DNA of 64,000 bases, taken from contig NZ_BBPQ01000007.1 of the NCBI RefSeq assembly GCF_000787855.1, positions 1-64,000 of the forward strand, read 5' to 3'. This DNA comes from Streptacidiphilus anmyonensis. GTDB taxonomy: Bacteria; Actinomycetota; Actinomycetes; Streptomycetales; Streptomycetaceae. Position numbers and translations under genes: made by a program. Below the pieces are notes generated by a model. That model saw only the letters and a list, made by a program, of their open reading frames with translations. It ran no database searches and was not told where the DNA came from. Of this stretch, positions 10,193-19,883 are shown one piece after another; the first letter of the stretch is position 1, and every line of letters starts with the position of its first letter.

Positions 10193-13100
10193 GTGACGAC
10201 CGCTACCAGGTGGCGACCGGACCTCCCGGTGACCGTCTTCTGTGTGTGGACGACTGCGCTCGTCTGTCTGTACTACGCCTTCTCGGCCCAGAGATTCATC
10301 TTCGTCGCGGTCGGCCTCAGCGGCGTCGCGGGCATCGTGCTGGGCCTGGTGCGCAACCGCCCGTCCCACCCGCTGCCCTGGCTGCTGCTGGCGGCCGCCA
10401 ACCTGACGTTCACGCTGGGGGAGCTCGCGCAGATCGTTCTGATCCAGTACGAGCACGAGGACCCTGTCACGTCCATCGCGGACGCGTTCTACCTTGTCAC
10501 GTACGTCCTGTACGCGGCGGGGCTGCTCGGCTTCATCCGCTGGCGGTCCTCGCGGCAGGACCGGGCCAGCCTGGTCGACGCGCTGACCCTCACCGCGGCC
10601 CTGGCTCTGCTGTCCTGGGTCTACGTGATCGTCCCCTACGCCCACACCCCGGGCCAGACGTGGTTCCAGCGGGCCGTCTCCATCACCTACCCCCTCGGGG
10701 ACATCCTGGTGCTGGCGATGCTGCTGCGGCTGCTGGCCCCGCGCGGCGGCAAGAGCCTCTCCCTGGTCCTGCTCACCATCGGCACCGTCGGGCTGCTGGC
10801 GGCCGACGTCGCCTACGCACAGCTCCAACTGCACGGCGTGTGGCGCACCGGCACGCCCGTGGACCTCGGCTGGGCGGTCTTCTACGGGGCGTGGGGCGCG
10901 GCCGCCCTGCACCCGTCCATGAGATCCCTGACCGAGCCGGTGGCGGTGCGGCACGAGAGCGTCCACGGCTGGCGGCTCGGTCTGCTGGCCGTCGCCTCGC
11001 TGACGGCTCCGGTGATGCTGCTGATCGCCGCCGCGCGGGGGGACAACGGCAACGCCGGCGTGATCGGGGCGTTCTCGGCGGTGCTGTTCCTGCTCGTCCT
11101 GCACCGGCTCTCCGGCGTCGCGGCGACCCACCGTCAGGCGCTCGCGCGCGAGCGCGTGCTGCGGGCGGCGGCGACCGGCCTGGGCGACGCCGAGTCCGTC
11201 GCGGACGTCGCCCTGACCGTGACCGGCGCGGCCCGGGTGCTGCTGGACGGGGGCCACGGGCGCAGCATCCTGTTCGCGGTCAGGGACGAGCGCGGCTCCT
11301 GGTGCGTAAGGACGCAGGACGGTGATCCGGAGGACAAGGTGATCCCGTCCTTCGCCGCGCGTGACGACCTGGCGGCGGTCGCGAGCGGCAGCACGAGGGA
11401 GGTGCGCGTCGCGGAGCTGCCCGGACCGTTGCGGGAGCACTTCTCGGGCGGACATCCGGTGCTGGTCTGCCCCCTCGCCGCCCAGGACCGGGCGGCCAAG
11501 GACCCACCCGAGCTCGGCGCGCTGCTGGCCGAGAGCGACGAGTGGGGCCTGGCGTCGCGCCGCGACAGCCTGGCCACCCTGGCGACCCAGGCGGCGCTCG
11601 CCGTGCAGCGGATCCTGCTGAGTCGGGAGGTCAGCAGGCGCAAGAGCGAGGCGTACTTCCGCACCCTGGTGCAGAACGCCTCGGACGTGATCCTGATCCT
11701 CGGGGACGACGACACCGTCCGCTACGCCAGCCCGTCCGCCGCCCAGGTGCTGGGGTCCACCCGGTTGACGGGGTCCCGCTTCCCGGAGCTGGTGGTGCCG
11801 CAGGAGCGCCGGATCGTCCGTGACGCGCTGGCCCAGATGCGGGTGCGCGACAGCGACAGCCGCCGCGACCACTGGCGGATGCGCCGGGCCGACGAGGGCG
11901 CCGTCGAGGTCGAGGTGCGCTGCAGCGACCTGCGCGCGGACCCCACGGTCGGCGGCCTGGTGCTGACCCTGCGCGATGTCACCGAACAGCGCAACCTCGA
12001 ACGGGAACTGACGCACCGTGCCTTCCACGACCCGCTGACGGGCCTGGCGAACCGGCTGCTCTTCCAGGAGCGGGTGTCCCACGCGCTCGCCCAGAGCCAC
12101 CGCGAGGGCACCGTGGTCGGCGTGCTCTTCGTCGACGTGGACGACTTCAAGATCGTCAACGACGTCCAGGGCCATGGGGTCGGCGACGAACTCCTGGTGG
12201 CGCTCGCGCTGCGGCTCTCCACCACCGTCCGGGCCTCGGACACCGCCGCGCGCATCGGCGGCGACGAGTTCGCGCTGCTGATCGAGGACCCGATGACGCC
12301 CGCCGACGTGGAGGCCTTCGCCGACCACGTGCTGGAGGTGTTCGGCGAGCCGTTCCAGCTGAGCGTCGGGCCGGTGAGCGCCTACGTCAGCGTCGGCATC
12401 GCCACCACCGAGGACAGCTACGACTCGGTGGAACTGCTGACGCACGCGGACCTGGCGCTGTACGAGGCCAAGACCGCCGGCAAGCGGCAGTGGCGGCACT
12501 ACCACCCCTCGCTCCAGAGCGGCATGCTGGAGCGCCACGAGCTCCAGGACAGCCTCAACCGCGCCGAGGTCGATTCCTTCCAGGTCCTCTACCAGCCCAT
12601 CGTGGAGCTGGCGAGCGGCAAGGTGGACGGGTTCGAGGCGCTGCTGCGTTGGCCGCACTCCACCCGCGGCGTGGTGATGCCCGAGCAGTTCATCTCGCTG
12701 GCCGAGGAGAGCGGGCAGATCGTGCCGCTCGGCGGCTGGGTCCTGGACCTGGCCACCACCGAGGCGGTGGGCTGGCACCGCCTGCTGCGCGAACGGCACG
12801 CCCCGGGCGGCGCGCCGGTGTGGCCGTACGTCAGCATCAACGTCTCGCCGCGTCAGTTCCACGACCCCGGCTTCCTCGGCGTCATGCACCACGCGCTGGA
12901 GCAGTCGGGCATCGCCCCGTCCTCGGTCGTCCTGGAACTGACGGAGAGCCTGCTCATCCGGCGCGACGAGCGGATCCTGGCCCAGATGCAGGACCTGACC
13001 GACCTCGGGATCCGCATCGCGATCGACGACTTCGGGACGGGCTACTCCTCGCTGAGCTACCTGCGCGAGTTCCCCATCTCGATTCTGAAGATCGACCGCA

Positions 13101-13366
13101 CGTTCATCGACGAACTCGGCCGGTCCCCCCAGCAGTACGCGCTGGTCGAAGGCATCACGCATCTCGCCGACACCCTGGGCGTCGCCGTGATCGCCGAAGG
13201 AGTGGAGACCTCCCGCCAGCAGGAGCTGCTGATCGCGCTGGGATGCCAGCGCGGCCAGGGCTACCTGTTCGCGCAGCCGATGGACGCGGCGTCCGCCCGT
13301 CAGCTGCTCCTCGAATCGCCGACCGGCGCCTTCAAACCCAGCGCGCTCAGACCCGGAGTCGCCTGA
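10193..13366 (+). CDS. Membrane GGDEF-EAL cyclic-di-GMP synthase/phosphodiesterase
   Basis: 1057 residues from GTG 10193 with GGAGG just upstream. Order: about 8-9 membrane segments (residues 10-310), a GAF-like region (about 320-470), PAS (about 485-605), GGDEF (about 605-775) and EAL (about 785-1040). The active-site motif GGDEF is intact near residue 690, and an inhibitory-site RASD lies five residues before it, so feedback inhibition by cyclic-di-GMP is expected. The EAL domain keeps FEALLRW, ELTES, DDFGTG, LKIDR and AEGVE, so hydrolysis is also likely. Membrane-bound RmdB-type proteins of Streptomyces share this plan and control development. Which activity dominates cannot be told. Confidence 0.92.
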   Translation: MTTATRWRPDLPVTVFCVWTTALVCLYYAFSAQRFIFVAVGLSGVAGIVLGLVRNRPSHPLPWLLLAAANLTFTLGELAQIVLIQYEHEDPVTSIADAFYLVTYVLYAAGLLGFIRWRSSRQDRASLVDALTLTAALALLSWVYVIVPYAHTPGQTWFQRAVSITYPLGDILVLAMLLRLLAPRGGKSLSLVLLTIGTVGLLAADVAYAQLQLHGVWRTGTPVDLGWAVFYGAWGAAALHPSMRSLTEPVAVRHESVHGWRLGLLAVASLTAPVMLLIAAARGDNGNAGVIGAFSAVLFLLVLHRLSGVAATHRQALARERVLRAAATGLGDAESVADVALTVTGAARVLLDGGHGRSILFAVRDERGSWCVRTQDGDPEDKVIPSFAARDDLAAVASGSTREVRVAELPGPLREHFSGGHPVLVCPLAAQDRAAKDPPELGALLAESDEWGLASRRDSLATLATQAALAVQRILLSREVSRRKSEAYFRTLVQNASDVILILGDDDTVRYASPSAAQVLGSTRLTGSRFPELVVPQERRIVRDALAQMRVRDSDSRRDHWRMRRADEGAVEVEVRCSDLRADPTVGGLVLTLRDVTEQRNLERELTHRAFHDPLTGLANRLLFQERVSHALAQSHREGTVVGVLFVDVDDFKIVNDVQGHGVGDELLVALALRLSTTVRASDTAARIGGDEFALLIEDPMTPADVEAFADHVLEVFGEPFQLSVGPVSAYVSVGIATTEDSYDSVELLTHADLALYEAKTAGKRQWRHYHPSLQSGMLERHELQDSLNRAEVDSFQVLYQPIVELASGKVDGFEALLRWPHSTRGVVMPEQFISLAEESGQIVPLGGWVLDLATTEAVGWHRLLRERHAPGGAPVWPYVSINVSPRQFHDPGFLGVMHHALEQSGIAPSSVVLELTESLLIRRDERILAQMQDLTDLGIRIAIDDFGTGYSSLSYLREFPISILKIDRTFIDELGRSPQQYALVEGITHLADTLGVAVIAEGVETSRQQELLIALGCQRGQGYLFAQPMDAASARQLLLESPTGAFKPSALRPGVA

Positions 13367-13412
13367 GCCGGCCGCTGCCGGCTCCGGAATCCCTGGAAGA
13401 CCCTGGAAGGCG

Positions 13413-16400
13413 ATGCCACAGCGACCGTTGCCCACACCACCGCCCGGCCGGTACCTGCTGCTCCGGAACGATCAGGGGCAGTTCGGCGTCTGGCCGGCGG
13501 AGCTCGCGGCCCCGGACGGCTGGCGTCCGGCCGGGCCCGAGCCCGCGGACTCCGCCCAGGAGTGCGCCGCCGTGCTCCGCGCCGGCCCCCCGTACCTGTG
13601 GCCCAAGCTCCGTCCCGGGCACCGGCGCACCACGGCCGCGTCGACGACCGGCCGGGCCGCCGGCCCCGAGGCCCGCGGCGACCCGGTGCCGACCGTGTCC
13701 GCGCTGGTCCGCACGCAGGCGCACCGGACGCCGCTCGCCCCGGCGTTGCTGTGGACCGGCGGCGCGCTCAGCTACGGCGCCCTGGACACGCGTGCCGACG
13801 TGACCGCCGCGGCGCTCCAGGAGCGCGGCTGCGGGCCGGGCGAGGTGGCGGCGGTCTGCCTGGACCGCACCGCCGACCTGGTGGTCTGCCTGCTGGCGAT
13901 CCTGCGCACCGGGGCGACGCTGCTGCCCCTCGACCCCGAGATGCCTCCTGCCCGCCTGGCCCACCTGCTGGGCGACGCGCGGGCCCGTCTGGTGGTCACC
14001 GGGGAGGACCACCGGCGGATGTGCGAGTCCGCCGCGTCGGCCGGCCACGCGGAGACGGGCCGCGGGGAGACGGGCCGTGCCGGCTGCGGGGCCGCGGCCA
14101 CGGCGGTCGTGGCGGTGGACGAGGTGACCGGGGAGGTCCCGCCGGAGGAGAGGCCGCGGCCGGACGAGCCCGACCCGGACGACGTCGCGTACCTCATCTA
14201 CACCTCCGGCTCCACCGGCGCGCCCAAGGGCATCGCGGTCACCCACCGTTCCCTGGCGGGTTCCCTGGCCGCGTCCGCCGCCTCCTACGGCTGGCATCCC
14301 GGCGACCGCGCCCTGCACCTGGCCGCGGTCAGCTTCGACACCTCGCTGGAGCAGATCTTCGGCCCCCTGATCACCGGAGCCGCCACCGTGCTGACCGGAG
14401 GGCCGCCGTGGGCTCCCAGCGAGGTGTTGGAGGCCGTGGCCCGCCACCGCATCTCGACCCTGGACCTGACGCCCGCCTACTCCCGCCACCTCCTCAGCCT
14501 CCTGCGGGCCGGCCGGTACCCGCTCGACACGGTGCGGCTGGTGGTCGTCGGCGGGGAGATCGTCCGCGCGAAGGACTGCCGCGGCTGGCTGGAGCACGCG
14601 CCCGGAGCCCGGCTGGTCAACGCCTACGGACTGACCGAGACCACGATCACCTCCACCACCTGCGATCTCGGCGCCTGGGCCGCCACGGCCGACGGCGGCG
14701 CGCCGGCCCCCGTGGGTCGTCCGCTCCCCGGCACCCGCGTCCACCTCCTCGACGCGCGACTGCGGCCGGTGCCGCCGGGCGAACGGGGCCAGGTCCACAT
14801 CGGCGGCGACCATGTGGCCGAGGGCATCTGGCGGCAGCCCGACCGCACGGCGCAGGAGTTCCTGCCGGATCCCTACGGCGACCGCCCCGGCGCGCGGATG
14901 TACCGCACCGGCGACATCGGGGTGTTCCTTCCCGACGGGTCGCTGTCGATCGTCGGCCGGTTCGACGACCAGATCAAGATCCGCGGGCACCGCATCGACC
15001 CCGCCGAGATCGAGGCCGTCCTGCGGGCCCATCCATCCGTCGACGACGTCGCCGTCGTGGCGCGGCACCGCGGCGAGCACGACCAGCAGCAACTGGCCGC
15101 CTTCTACCGTCCCGCGCCTGGGACTTCGCCCGGCGCGAACGGAGGCGACGGAGGGGACGGAGGCGACGGCGCGGACGGAGGGAACGGAGGGAACAGCGGG
15201 ACGGCGGACCAGTTGCGCCGCGCGCTCGCCCGGGCCCTGCCCGGCTACATGATGCCCGCCTCGTTCACGGCGCTGGAGCACCTGCCGGTCACCCCGCACG
15301 GGAAGATCGACCGGCGGGCGCTGGCGCGGAGCGCGCTCCAGGCCCCGCCCGCGCCCCACGCCGCCGCGCCACCCGCCGGCGCCCCGGCGCTCCCGCAGCC
15401 GTCCGCCCGGGCGGACGCCGTCCCCGCCGCACCAGCAACGCCCGCCGAAGCCGCGCAAGCCGCCACATCCGCCGGGCCTGCCGGGTCCGACGGGGCCGCC
15501 CCGGCGGCCTGGGCGACGCCGACCCGACCGCACGCCGTCATGGCGCATCTGTGGGCGCAGATCCTGGGTGTCGCGCACGTCCGCCCGGACGACGACTTCT
15601 TCCACCTCGGCGGCAACTCGCTGCTCGCCATGGAGATGCTGGCGCGGGCGCGCGTCATCTTCGGCATCGACATCACCCAGGTCCGCGAACTCTCCCGCGC
15701 CCTCCTGCTGCACCCCACGCTCGCCGACTTCGCCGAGCAGGCGACGCTGGCCCGGCGCGGGCGGCTGACCGGGACCGACCGGCCACCGGTCGACTTCACC
15801 GCCGAGGCGGAGCTGAGCCTGCGGGCCGCAGGCACCGGCGACCCCGCCCCCGACCCCCGCCGACCCAAGGACATCCTGCTCACCGGAGCGACCGGGCTGT
15901 GCGGCACGCACATGCTGGGCGAACTCCTGGAGCACACCCAGGCCCGGATCCACTGCCTGGTGCGCGCCCCCGATCCGGCCCAGGCCTTCGAGCGCCTGCG
16001 CGCCGCCCACCTGCGCTACCTGCGCCGGGATCTCGCCGCCGACCCGCGCCGCGACCGCATCGTGCCGACCGTCGGCGACCTCGCCGCGCCGCGCCTGGGA
16101 CTCGCCCCCGACACCGCCGCCATGCTGGAGCGGACCGTCGACCTGATCTACCACTTCGGCGCGCAGGTCAACTTCATCTACCCCTACCAGGCCCTGCGCG
16201 CCGCCAACGTCGAGTCCGTGCGCGCGCTCGTGGAGCTGGCCGCCCCCAGGTCCGTGCCGCTCCACTACACCTCCAGCCTGGCCGTCATGGCCGGGTACGG
16301 CGCCGCGGGCGTGCGCGCGGTCACCGAGCGGACGCCCCTCGCCCACGCCGACTACCTCTCGGTCGGCTACGTCGAGTCCAAGTGGGTGGCGGAGCTGATG

Positions 16401-17855
16401 CTGCGTCACGCGGCCGAGGCGGGCGTCCCGGTCAGCGTGTACCGGCTCCAGGACGTCACCGGCTCGCTGGCCACGGGTGTCCTCAACACCGGCACGGAGA
16501 TCTGCGCCCTCGTCAAGTTCCTCGCCGACTCCGGTCTATGCCCCGCCGTCGACCTGCCGCTTGACCTCCTGCCGGCCGACTGCTTCGCGCAGGCGGTACG
16601 CCACATCTCCACCGTCGGCCCCTCCGCCACCGCCCCCGGCGGTGGCGTCTACCATCTGACCAATCCCCGCCCCGCGCTGGTGGACGTGCTGGCCGACAGT
16701 CTGCGCGGGCGCGGCTTCGCGGTCCGCGAGATCCCGTACCAGGAGTGGGTGAGCGCGCTGATCCGGTTCGCGGCCGAGCATCCGGCCCACCCGGTCAGCC
16801 CGTTCGTGCCGCTCTTCGTCGACCGCTGCAACCACGCCGACATGAGCGTCAGCGAGATGTACCTGCAGAGCGTCTTCCCGCGCTTCCGCCGCGACCACGC
16901 GGAGCGCGCCCTGGCCGGCAGCGGCGTGCTTATCCCCCCGGTGGACCTGGAGATGCTCGGCCGCTACGTGGACAGCCTCGAACGCGACGGCTATCTCTCA
17001 CCCGCGCAGGACACGGCCCCGCGCCCGGCGGAGCCGCGCCGCACGTCCTGGGCGCGGCTGGACCTCGCCCACGCTCCGGCGGACGCCCCGGTGGCCTTCG
17101 GCGGCAGCCTCACCCCCGACGAGGTGGGCGCCGCCTACGCCGCGGGCGCCTACCCGATGCCCGCCGCGGACGACCGCGCCCGCGGGACGGCGATGTCCCT
17201 GTACGGCGCGGAGGTGCACTCCGGGCGGATTCCCGTGGTCGGGTCGGGCGACCCCTGGGCCCTCGCCTGGTGGTCTCCGGACCCCCGACCGGTGATCCCG
17301 GTCGCCGACGTCCACCTCAGCCGCAGCCTCGTCCGCCGCCTGGACCGCCGGGTCCGCTGGACCACCAGCGCGGACCGGGCCTTCGCGGAGGTCCTGCACG
17401 CCTGCCGGGTGGGACGCCGACCCCGGTGGCTCACCGACGAGCTGATGCGCTGTCTGCTCGCGCTGCACGCAACGGGCCAGGCCCACAGCGCCGAGGTGTG
17501 GGAGGGCGACCAGCTGATCGGCGGGGTGTTCGGCGTGCGCGTCGGCCGGGTCCTCAGCATGGACTCGATGTTCGGGACACGCCCCGGCTCCGGCCTGGTC
17601 GCGGTGGCCGACCTCGCCCTCCGCTTCGCCGAGGCGGGCGGCGAGTTCCTGGACGCCCAACGCGACAGCCCCCACGTGCGGGCCATGGGAGCGATACTGA
17701 CGCCGCGTCAGGACTATCTGTCGCTGCTCGGGCGAGCCGAGCAGCCCCGTCCGGACGGCGACCGGCCCCTGCCGACCGCCGCCGAGGAAGCCCGACGGCT
17801 CACCCGGGGCCGGGGCGGGCGTTGCCCTGTTCGGCCGGTCCGTCCTGCGCGCTGA
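13413..17855 (+). CDS. Fused MbtH-A-T-reductase-Aat synthetase (NRPS with tRNA-dependent aminoacyltransferase domain)
   Basis: 1480 residues from ATG 13413 (GGAAGG upstream). Residues about 12-72 resemble a degenerate MbtH domain (GQFGVWPAELAAPDGW). The adenylation domain (about 92-655) has YLIYTSGSTGAPKG, NAYGLTETT, YRTGDIG, GHRIDPAEIE and HGKIDR. The carrier domain has FFHLGGNSLL (Ser about 734). The thioester-reductase domain (about 815-1195) has LTGATGLCG and YVESK. The C-terminal domain (about 1225-1440) is a leucyl/phenylalanyl-tRNA-protein transferase: FGGSLTPDEVGAAYAAGAYPMP, WWSPDPRPVIP, HSAEVW, DAQ. There is no condensation domain. I infer that Aat transfers an amino acid from aminoacyl-tRNA to the amine of the carrier-bound residue and the reductase releases an aldehyde. 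Long Gly- and Ala/Pro-rich linkers separate the domains. The substrate is unknown. Confidence 0.9.
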   Translation: MPQRPLPTPPPGRYLLLRNDQGQFGVWPAELAAPDGWRPAGPEPADSAQECAAVLRAGPPYLWPKLRPGHRRTTAASTTGRAAGPEARGDPVPTVSALVRTQAHRTPLAPALLWTGGALSYGALDTRADVTAAALQERGCGPGEVAAVCLDRTADLVVCLLAILRTGATLLPLDPEMPPARLAHLLGDARARLVVTGEDHRRMCESAASAGHAETGRGETGRAGCGAAATAVVAVDEVTGEVPPEERPRPDEPDPDDVAYLIYTSGSTGAPKGIAVTHRSLAGSLAASAASYGWHPGDRALHLAAVSFDTSLEQIFGPLITGAATVLTGGPPWAPSEVLEAVARHRISTLDLTPAYSRHLLSLLRAGRYPLDTVRLVVVGGEIVRAKDCRGWLEHAPGARLVNAYGLTETTITSTTCDLGAWAATADGGAPAPVGRPLPGTRVHLLDARLRPVPPGERGQVHIGGDHVAEGIWRQPDRTAQEFLPDPYGDRPGARMYRTGDIGVFLPDGSLSIVGRFDDQIKIRGHRIDPAEIEAVLRAHPSVDDVAVVARHRGEHDQQQLAAFYRPAPGTSPGANGGDGGDGGDGADGGNGGNSGTADQLRRALARALPGYMMPASFTALEHLPVTPHGKIDRRALARSALQAPPAPHAAAPPAGAPALPQPSARADAVPAAPATPAEAAQAATSAGPAGSDGAAPAAWATPTRPHAVMAHLWAQILGVAHVRPDDDFFHLGGNSLLAMEMLARARVIFGIDITQVRELSRALLLHPTLADFAEQATLARRGRLTGTDRPPVDFTAEAELSLRAAGTGDPAPDPRRPKDILLTGATGLCGTHMLGELLEHTQARIHCLVRAPDPAQAFERLRAAHLRYLRRDLAADPRRDRIVPTVGDLAAPRLGLAPDTAAMLERTVDLIYHFGAQVNFIYPYQALRAANVESVRALVELAAPRSVPLHYTSSLAVMAGYGAAGVRAVTERTPLAHADYLSVGYVESKWVAELMLRHAAEAGVPVSVYRLQDVTGSLATGVLNTGTEICALVKFLADSGLCPAVDLPLDLLPADCFAQAVRHISTVGPSATAPGGGVYHLTNPRPALVDVLADSLRGRGFAVREIPYQEWVSALIRFAAEHPAHPVSPFVPLFVDRCNHADMSVSEMYLQSVFPRFRRDHAERALAGSGVLIPPVDLEMLGRYVDSLERDGYLSPAQDTAPRPAEPRRTSWARLDLAHAPADAPVAFGGSLTPDEVGAAYAAGAYPMPAADDRARGTAMSLYGAEVHSGRIPVVGSGDPWALAWWSPDPRPVIPVADVHLSRSLVRRLDRRVRWTTSADRAFAEVLHACRVGRRPRWLTDELMRCLLALHATGQAHSAEVWEGDQLIGGVFGVRVGRVLSMDSMFGTRPGSGLVAVADLALRFAEAGGEFLDAQRDSPHVRAMGAILTPRQDYLSLLGRAEQPRPDGDRPLPTAAEEARRLTRGRGGRCPVRPVRPAR

Positions 17856-17913
17856 CCTGCGCCGACCTAGTGTGGTGCAGGTAGGGGGCCCTGACCTGGA
17901 AGGACGCCGTCCC

Positions 17914-18177
17914 ATGGCGCGCATCACCCGTACCCGGGCAGCAGCCCACCGCGTCGAGGTGTACCGCCTCGACCTCGACGAGGGCGAGCGGGCGGCGCTC
18001 CGCTCCGCGCCCGGTGACTACCTGCGCACGCTGCTGGAGAACGAGGGCCACACGGTCGACGCCGTCCTGGTCGACTCCGCGCTCGACGCCCCCGGCGCCG
18101 TCGCCACGGAGGTGGTCCACCTCCAGGGCGGCTTCATGTCCCGCACGTGGGCGGTGCGCTCCGTCGCGCGGGAGTGA
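17914..18177 (+). CDS. Small unrecognised protein downstream of the MbtH-A-T-R-Aat gene
   Basis: 87 residues from ATG 17914, with GGAAGGAC a little upstream. I do not recognise a family. The N-terminus is basic (MARITRTRAAAHRVEVYRLD), followed by an acidic, probably helical stretch (LDEGERAALRSAPGDYLRTLL) and a Val/Ala-rich end. No signal peptide, membrane segment or cysteine. It lies 58 bp after the synthetase and ends inside the terminator hairpin, so it may be the last gene of that transcript and act with the synthetase, as an accessory or self-protection protein. This is inference from position. Confidence 0.6.
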   Translation: MARITRTRAAAHRVEVYRLDLDEGERAALRSAPGDYLRTLLENEGHTVDAVLVDSALDAPGAVATEVVHLQGGFMSRTWAVRSVARE

Positions 18178-18510: not shown

Positions 18511-19584
18511 TCAGGCGTGCACCTGGGAGCCGATGCCGAGGTCGAGACGGACGGACTCGAGCAGCACGAACGCGGTGCTCTCGGTGTAGACGTCGGCGGC
18601 TGCCAGCACCCCGGTGTACTTCCTCACGACCGGATCGGCGGCGTATTTGGTCTGCGCCGCCTGGTACTCCTTGACCGCCGCCCACTCGTTGTCGCCGTAC
18701 TTGGCGAAGAACGGGGCGGGGTCGACGTCGACGAGCGCCGCCTTCACCCCGGTGATCAGGTCCGCGACGTACTGCTGGTAGAGCGTCATGTCCGCGCGGG
18801 TGCCGAGCCGCCCCATGTGCCCGCCGATGTAGTGGCTCCACGGGTAGGCGAGGGCCTTGTCCGGGGCGGCCACGGAGCCGGGGACGTCCTCGTTGAGGTT
18901 GAAGCTGTCGAAGGGGACCCAGCCGGGCAGGTTGACGTCGACCAGCATCAGCGTGTCGTGGTCGGGGAAGTGGATGTAGATGTTGTCGGGCGTGTGGTTG
19001 GTGCCCAGATGGGCCAGCTCGACGCGCTCCCCGCCGACGTGCAGCGTCCTGCGGTCGGTGAAGGTGGTGTCCGGGACGGGCCGGGCCGGGTCGTCGTCGC
19101 GCAGCAGCAGGCGGCGGGTGTCGACGTGGCCGATGCGTTCGACGTCGGAGCCGAAGAGGAACGAGCCGCCGAGGTGGTCGGCGTGGTGGTGGGAGTAGAC
19201 GAGGTGGGTCACCTTGTTCGACACCCCGTTCGCCGCCGCGATCTCGTCGATCGCGCGCTGGAGGTTGTGGCCGATGGTCGGGGGCGCGTCGAAGAGCACG
19301 ACACCGTCCTCGGTGGCGAGGAAAGCGGCCTGGTAGGTGCCGTCGGTGACCCAGTAGAGGTTCCGCTCGACCCGTCCGACGTAGTAGCCCTGCTCGTTGA
19401 CGGCCGGGCCGAGTGCGCCGGGCGGGATCGGGGCGTAGTCCGGGAGGTCGGTCGTCGCCGCCGAGGCGGGGGAGGGGGCGGCGAGGACACCGCCGAGCGC
19501 CGCGGCCAGGGCCGGGACGGCCGCCGCCTTCGCGGAGCGGGTGAGGAACGAGCGGCGGCCGGTCGCGGAATCGAGCACGGACAT
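18511..19584 (-). CDS. Tat-exported metallo-beta-lactamase-fold hydrolase
   Basis: 357 residues from ATG 19584. The N-terminus GRRSFLTRSAKAAAVPALAAALGGVL is a twin-arginine signal peptide (RRSFL near residue 10), so the protein should be exported folded. The zinc-binding motif is YSHHHADHLGG near residue 155, followed by LAHLGTNHTPDNIYIHFP. This is the class-B beta-lactamase/glyoxalase-II superfamily; the sequence resembles quinoprotein-relay or lactonase-like members rather than true beta-lactamases. Substrate unknown. It could modify a secreted metabolite, but there is no operon link to the synthetase. Confidence 0.82.
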   Translation of the reverse strand: MSVLDSATGRRSFLTRSAKAAAVPALAAALGGVLAAPSPASAATTDLPDYAPIPPGALGPAVNEQGYYVGRVERNLYWVTDGTYQAAFLATEDGVVLFDAPPTIGHNLQRAIDEIAAANGVSNKVTHLVYSHHHADHLGGSFLFGSDVERIGHVDTRRLLLRDDDPARPVPDTTFTDRRTLHVGGERVELAHLGTNHTPDNIYIHFPDHDTLMLVDVNLPGWVPFDSFNLNEDVPGSVAAPDKALAYPWSHYIGGHMGRLGTRADMTLYQQYVADLITGVKAALVDVDPAPFFAKYGDNEWAAVKEYQAAQTKYAADPVVRKYTGVLAAADVYTESTAFVLLESVRLDLGIGSQVHA

Positions 19585-19664: not shown

Positions 19665-19883
19665 TCAGCGGGGCGGGTCGCAGGAGCGGCTGAGCTCGAC
19701 GAGGTCGAGGCCGAGCATCTCCAACTGCGCCAGCACCCCGTACAGCCCCGAGCGGTCCAGGTATCCGACCAGCACGGTCTGCGCGGCCCGGTGCTCGGCC
19801 GTCAGCGTCGGGAACGCGGACAGGGCGGTCGCGCCGAGGAGGCCGTCGACGCGGATCGTGTACAGGGCTGGTTCGGTGCTCAT
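19665..19883 (-). CDS. Small conserved hypothetical protein
   Basis: 72 residues from ATG 19883. It begins MSTEPALYTIRVDGLLGATA, continues to the core SGLYGVLAQLEMLGLDLVELSR and ends in a CDPPR tail. It resembles small actinobacterial proteins found next to regulators or MBL-fold genes, with a beta-alpha-beta ferredoxin-like look. No catalytic residue or signal sequence. It lies just downstream of the LuxR-type gene on the same strand. Function unknown. Confidence 0.6.
   Translation of the reverse strand: MSTEPALYTIRVDGLLGATALSAFPTLTAEHRAAQTVLVGYLDRSGLYGVLAQLEMLGLDLVELSRSCDPPR

Follow-up and report, generated by a model that had tools for sequence, protein, structure and literature searches.

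Introduction

The closest described system to the one analysed here is livipeptin (Sli0883-Sli0885) of Streptomyces lividans 66, a split pair of nonribosomal peptide synthetase (NRPS) and leucyl/phenylalanyl-tRNA-protein transferase (Aat, or L/F transferase) that the original prediction for our locus had also named (Aguilar et al., 2023, PMC10548850). In the sections of that paper drawn on here, an NRPS without condensation domain (C-minus), an L/F transferase and an N-acyltransferase together give a protease-inhibiting fraction. Only mixtures of the three genes were active and RNase suppressed the activity, although the legend of its Figure 4, with effects of about 87% for trypsin and 37% for papain, is less clear-cut than the text. 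Activity required the N-acyltransferase Sli0885, and the structure of the product was never obtained. The cluster also holds an O-methyltransferase and a butyryl-CoA dehydrogenase. The same sections state that known small peptide aldehydes are N-capped, and describe 'potentially translational fusions' of L/F transferase and C-minus NRPS, within a clade to which Streptacidiphilus contributes six entries; MbtH, GGDEF, diguanylate and c-di-GMP are all absent from the main text.

A second group of relevant enzymes is formed by the NRPSs of the aureusimine/phevalin type, which also release a dipeptide aldehyde reductively, the aldehyde then cyclising to a pyrazinone (PMC4210894, PMC12144821, in the passages concerned). 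These are described as dimodular, with a C domain, whereas the synthase described below is a single module plus Aat. Arglecin and argvalin of Streptomyces are likewise pyrazinones, and no dedicated gene is named for them in the passages of PMC4210894, PMC12144821 and PMC11212599 that we used.

Domain architecture of the synthase

The window, by which we mean the whole stretch of 64 kb of Streptacidiphilus anmyonensis DNA that was analysed, contains on its forward strand an uninterrupted frame of 1480 amino acids, from an ATG at 13413 to a stop ending at 17855, with the following parts:

13413..17855, + strand: five-domain synthase, MbtH-A-T-R-Aat, 1480 aa (ORF list, Pfam, NCBIfam)
13446..13628, + strand: MbtH-like domain, residues 12-72, partly degenerate (PF03621, 4gr5 alignment, motifs)
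13710..15332, + strand: adenylation (A) domain, residues 100-640, letters D-T-E-A-V-V-A-I-T-K (Pfam, NCBIfam)
15546..15737, + strand: carrier (T) domain, residues 712-775, with the GGNS serine (PP-binding 41 bits; GGNS at 733)
15873..16994, + strand: thioester reductase (R) domain, residues 821-1194 (TIGR01746, 252 bits, cut-off 213)
16998..17096, + strand: R-Aat linker, the fusion joint, residues 1196-1228 (dN/dS comparison)
17097..17732, + strand: Aat domain, residues 1229-1440 (PF03588, 2z3k, model)

The claim that one frame holds all five domains is borne out by Pfam and NCBIfam: MbtH, AMP-binding, AMP-binding_C, PP-binding, NAD_binding_4 and Leu_Phe_trans follow each other in this order, each above its curated cut-off and with no internal stop, and the motifs that had been listed (GGNS, TGATGLCG, YxxxK in the form YVESK, WWSPDPR, HSAEVW and DAQ) are all present. 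The synthase is overlapped by other ORFs, among them one of 1020 aa on the opposite strand (13347-16409, -); we read all of these as high-GC shadow frames.

Members of the MbtH family follow the pattern N..EGQ..LWP..P.GW..WTDxRP. The N-terminal part of the synthase, rightly described as degenerate, retains the core NDQGQFGVWP...PDGW and has the tail WPKLRP, which corresponds to WTDMRP in several Streptomyces relatives; PF03621 matches residues 12-53 with 35 bits (cut-off 27). An MbtH part ahead of an A domain in one chain is also found in the structure 4gr5, which we take to be SlgN1 and which aligns over residues 12-640 of the synthase, but that chain of 570 residues has neither R nor Aat. 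The A domain is matched by AMP-binding over residues 100-473 (268 bits in Pfam; AA-adenyl-dom, 383 bits in NCBIfam) and by AMP-binding_C over 532-631. In the R domain NAD_binding_4 covers residues 823-1062, TGATGLCG starts at 824 and YVESK at 986, and there is a match to the MxaA structure 4u7w. No Condensation or thioesterase family appears among the ten Pfam matches of the synthase listed up to E 1, in agreement with the predicted absence of a condensation domain.

The C-terminal region, on whose identity the original prediction had staked itself, is an Aat by profile, motifs and predicted fold. PF03588 (Leu_Phe_trans) matches residues 1283-1428 with 127 bits (cut-off 22.7), and WWSPDPR, HSAEVW and LDAQRDS start at residues 1286, 1358 and 1413. 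By sequence the domain matches the E. coli enzyme (2z3k) at E 1.2e-29, and the nine best PDB matches of its AlphaFold model (pLDDT 86) are all structures of that enzyme (2z3l and 2dps at E about 3e-18, TM 0.75-0.77). Fold and motifs are thus shared with E. coli Aat (2z3k, 2cxa), while the two are about 30% identical and the acceptor would differ: a protein N-terminus for the E. coli enzyme, a carrier-bound amino acid for this one.

All the domains are under purifying selection when the synthase is compared with the related locus L041, with dN/dS of 0.22-0.41 across domains (0.41 for the MbtH part) and 0.56 for the R-Aat linker. Directly after the synthase lies an ORF of 101 aa (17872-18177, +), which has no Pfam match and to which no gene called at 60 other loci is related; we discarded it as a sixth part. 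Farther neighbours in the window include, by Pfam and leaving aside a 72-aa ORF (19665-19883), a sigma-70-like gene, a LuxR-type regulator and a metallo-beta-lactamase-fold protein (18511-19584, -) that by eye has an apparent twin-arginine signal peptide.

Proposed substrates and mechanism

The specificity letters of the A domain, DTEAVVAITK, were placed by motif and by GrsA numbering, and they point to a basic residue without differentiating Arg from Lys. The third letter, at a position like 239, is Glu in 106 of 108 aligned rows drawn from two overlapping locus sets (L078 and L210 have a gap or X), and an acidic residue there suits Arg and Lys alike. Basic residues are also the natural acceptors of Aat.

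From the architecture we infer the following order of steps. The MbtH-like part would steady the A domain, which would adenylate a basic amino acid (Arg, possibly Lys) and load the carrier. The Aat domain would draw Leu or Phe (perhaps Met) from an aminoacyl-tRNA and transfer it onto the free alpha-amine of the carrier-bound residue, standing in for a C domain; this is the simplest reading of how the peptide bond is made, because the synthase has no C domain. The R domain would then free the dipeptide as an aldehyde using NAD(P)H, and the end product would likely be a cyclised imine and then a 2(1H)-pyrazinone. R domains may also reduce twice, yielding an alcohol. Finally, the gene would probably be co-expressed with that of an upstream membrane GGDEF-EAL protein, to which the output of the synthase would be tied. 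Taken together, we find it quite probable that the frame encodes a one-chain, tRNA-dependent dipeptide-aldehyde synthase joining Leu or Phe to a basic residue, with a pyrazinone as the likely product and a link to the GGDEF-EAL protein. For the chemistry, the reading that fits best is a dipeptide aldehyde of Leu or Phe and a basic residue. The replacement of the C domain by Aat with reductive release of an aldehyde, as originally proposed, fits the sequence evidence and the livipeptin work and is well supported, but it was already known.

Two other uses of the same domains have to be weighed. The A-T-R part could by itself make an amino aldehyde, as aminoadipate reductases do with A-T-R and no C domain (the synthase has a match to their family TIGR03443, below its cut-off), and Aat could later act on the free amino aldehyde. 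The presence of Aat in cis, beside the carrier, favours instead an action on the carrier-bound residue, and no livipeptin activity was seen without the Aat gene in the work covered by PMC10548850, although this does not fix the order of the steps; we judge this route decidedly improbable. The second possibility is that the Aat domain still adds Leu or Phe to the N-terminal Arg or Lys of proteins, the NRPS part being a separate activity of the same chain. The domain is the sole PF03588 match in its own genome and keeps the family residues, as such a role would have it. Against this, Aat stands beside or is fused to A-T-R at 56 of the 63 loci of our family sample (the window, 60 loci from PF03588 matches and two added later, with some matches such as G164, G231, G077, G083, G038 and G200 left out), and the livipeptin product needed both the NRPS and the Aat genes (PMC10548850, as far as used here), so that we lend this possibility hardly any credence.

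Origin of the fusion

PF03588 is present in eight of 14 Streptacidiphilus genomes, that of the window included. The search for the same fusion in other genomes, which the original prediction had called for, added five loci, from four other genomes of the genus (L035, L036, L039, L040 and L041), so that with the window six loci carry A-T-R and Aat in a single open frame. All five domains share the frame in five of these six; in L039 the MbtH part lies in a different frame, close to a stretch of unread bases. L035, L036 and L040 give weak MbtH matches (24-36 bits). In two more loci of the genus, L037 and L038, Aat is a separate gene that begins near the point where the NRPS gene ends, and by eye the second half of the R-Aat linker resembles the first residues of this separate Aat.

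In a tree of R plus Aat from 39 chosen loci, the six fused loci form one group (100/99) adjoining the two split ones, a topology that fits a single fusion of two previously abutting genes. An artefact, be it an assembly join of two genes or a frameshift, was considered and rejected: the repeated finding of A-T-R and Aat as a single frame, at those five additional loci in four different genomes, makes a join very unlikely, and a tree compatible with one origin also speaks against it.

The window synthase shares with livipeptin a C-minus A-T-R NRPS and an L/F transferase, an A domain predicted to take a basic residue and a predicted reductive release, and it has the marks of the published clade, A-T-R without C or thioesterase domains and a fused L/F-transferase homologue. 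It differs in being one frame where S. lividans has split genes (PMC10548850, in the sections used). The original remark on the lack of a described five-domain fusion has been overtaken: Aat/C-minus-NRPS fusions are reported there. The MbtH part goes unmentioned in the main text, so that the count of five domains is new detail. A plasmid collection yielded no S. lividans SLP3 copy: none of its records spans 80% of the query, and every match is under 60% identity.

Capping and probable fate of the product

The original prediction did not comment on the apparent absence of an N-acyltransferase near the synthase, an important point because known small peptide aldehydes are N-capped. Acetyltransf_1 (PF00583) has 102 matches in the genome and none of them falls inside the 64-kb window, the nearest being C147:77754. 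Among these matches and the window neighbours scanned by Pfam, no counterpart was found of the N-acyltransferase, the O-methyltransferase or the butyryl-CoA dehydrogenase that are linked in the livipeptin cluster. Pfam likewise gave no acyltransferase at six other loci of the genus, where ten neighbour proteins covering part of each neighbourhood were scanned, and by eye none was recognised among 16 neighbour-cluster representatives.

Since no linked amine-capping enzyme was found, an uncapped dipeptide aldehyde turning into a pyrazinone is the likely outcome. For Leu-Arg we compute a pyrazinone of C12H21N5O (m/z 252.182), which is presumably arglecin. Free-amine dipeptide aldehydes made by other NRPSs do cyclise and oxidise to pyrazinones (PMC4210894, PMC11212599, passages concerned). 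The alternative is an N-capped inhibitor like leupeptin or livipeptin, in which an acyltransferase encoded elsewhere would acetylate the dipeptide and the linear aldehyde would inhibit trypsin- and papain-like proteases. The many acetyltransferase matches of the genome speak for it, as does the need for Sli0885 in livipeptin inhibition as published (PMC10548850), a need that makes an uncapped product in this family putative; an acyltransferase that is unlinked, or that belongs to a family other than PF00583, could act on the product. Against it stands the lack of a PF00583 match in the window and of an acyltransferase among the neighbours that were scanned or inspected, and we place the N-capped inhibitor on the unlikely side, though as the most serious competitor of the pyrazinone.

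Antipain-type inhibitors are a rival source of arglecin- and argvalin-like pyrazinones: PMC11212599, in the passage used, explains both compounds as by-products of antipain-type NRPS inhibitors. Argvalin carries a putative mass annotation in S. noursei (PMC10742013, in part), and L171 is a synthase-type cluster in S. noursei B-3066. We consider this link weak: the two strains are possibly not the same, and Val instead of Leu or Phe would be required for argvalin.

The upstream GGDEF-EAL partner

The gene ahead of the synthase, also passed over by the original prediction, ends 46 bp before the synthase ATG:

10193..13366, + strand: membrane protein, PAS-GGDEF-EAL, likely cyclic-di-GMP enzyme (Pfam, hydropathy, motifs)

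Its product, of 1057 aa, has EAL (230 bits), GGDEF (141 bits) and PAS_4 (33 bits) domains in Pfam, about nine TM-like stretches by crude hydropathy and a weak GAF-like region. The catalytic motifs GGDEF, EALLRW and DDFGTGYSS are intact, so that the protein is likely both a maker and a breaker of cyclic-di-GMP, judging from its sequence. A model of its N-terminal part, of middling quality (pLDDT 76), has no PDB match at E <0.001; weak matches to GAF and LuxR-type ligand domains (E 0.01-0.03) are a lead only.

The pairing of this gene with the synthase is conserved. In the family sample, 55 of the 56 loci that pair Aat with A-T-R have it immediately ahead of the synthase (the exception is L078), co-directional in 10 and divergent, and hence not in one operon, in 45. 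A named scan of 78 loci, which overlaps the first sample, gave 54 qualifying loci, 52 of them with the GGDEF-EAL gene (26 co-directional, 26 divergent); L195, from a MAG, lacks it and L210 has only part of it. In the tree, the gene is co-directional in a clade of Streptacidiphilus and 13 Streptomyces rows, divergent in the other clade (Kitasatospora, Streptomyces-named records grouping with it, and G336), and absent in rows L195 and L078. Across the tree, orientation has changed while adjacency to the synthase stayed.

The two genes also go together across genomes. Among 394 genomes of the family, a close GGDEF-EAL orthologue (56% identity or above, E no higher than 1e-200, partial in four cases) is found together with PF03588 in 61. 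The orthologue without PF03588 occurs once, on a 3.6-kb contig of G130, PF03588 without the orthologue in seven genomes, and neither of them in 325; Aat thus accompanies 61 of 62 close orthologues, with the caveat that kinship among genomes inflates the Fisher value. Of the seven genomes with PF03588 alone we fetched five: four of them (G003, G029, G131, G244) have Aat in the vicinity of other NRPS genes, and the fifth, G024, is the source of L078. G010 and G013, the two genomes of the genus with a distant relative and no close orthologue, both lack PF03588.

Cyclic-di-GMP is a messenger governing Streptomyces development. A contact between the GGDEF-EAL protein and the synthase or its product is putative, and one may imagine a pair of signal synthase and receptor in which the pyrazinone would report charged Leu/Phe-tRNA and arginine supply and the GGDEF-EAL protein would convert this report into cyclic-di-GMP, a scheme that we regard as speculative and unlikely. 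Our literature search found no publication joining GGDEF-EAL with Aat-NRPSs or with oxoamine-synthase-like enzymes.

Relatives of the GGDEF-EAL protein that are about 50% identical to it are found fused or adjacent to a PLP enzyme (Aminotran_1_2 in Pfam, labelled alpha-oxoamine-synthase-like by eye) with a methyltransferase-like gene near (L095, L096, L134-L138, L140-L142, L145, L154; the frames of L096 are broken, and the single methyltransferase scanned gave a sub-threshold Pfam match only). The fusions, of about 1450-1640 aa, occur in L134 (6900-11384, -), L135, L138, L140-L142, L145 and L154, and they are a candidate second signal system. This branch of GGDEF-EAL proteins is repeatedly, not always, tied to small-molecule synthases. 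That every member has one beside it can be rejected: none was seen at L130-L133, second copies 65-66% identical to that of the window in four genomes that also hold an Aat-linked copy, and the neighbour of the relatives at L139, L143, L144 and L146, as at L158 and L178, is by eye a UDP-glucose-4-epimerase-like gene.

Aat is also seen in other NRPS neighbourhoods. In L203, L204, L206, L207 and L208, from Streptomyces, Dactylosporangium, Catellatospora, Actinomadura and Actinoplanes records, a separate Aat has an MbtH frame and an A-T NRPS in its vicinity; the only one of these NRPSs that was scanned, that of L204, is C-A-T by Pfam, an Aat-NRPS arrangement with a condensation domain. In L042, L043, L066 and L094, Aat is near multi-module or short A-T NRPSs without an R domain of the synthase type.

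Discussion

Fusions of Aat with C-minus NRPSs and the tRNA-dependent logic that they embody are already known from the parts of PMC10548850 on which we rely. What is new relative to its text is the count of five domains with MbtH, the lack of an acyltransferase match nearby and the partnership with a cyclic-di-GMP protein; together with the fusion itself, these features set the locus apart from livipeptin as published.

With aminoacyl-tRNA in place of a C domain and everything in one chain, such a synthase would be about the smallest plausible factory of peptide aldehydes. It could readily serve to produce dipeptide aldehydes or pyrazinones, with NRPS and transferase purifiable together as one protein in the fused form. 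For pyrazinones that contain arginine, arglecin among them, it is a candidate source next to antipain-type NRPSs. Orphan synthases of this family would gain a physiological role from their near-constant GGDEF-EAL neighbour. If the signal reading were true, the GGDEF-EAL subfamily would act as a socket into which different signals fit, given that an alpha-oxoamine-synthase-like enzyme is fused to relatives of about 50% identity.
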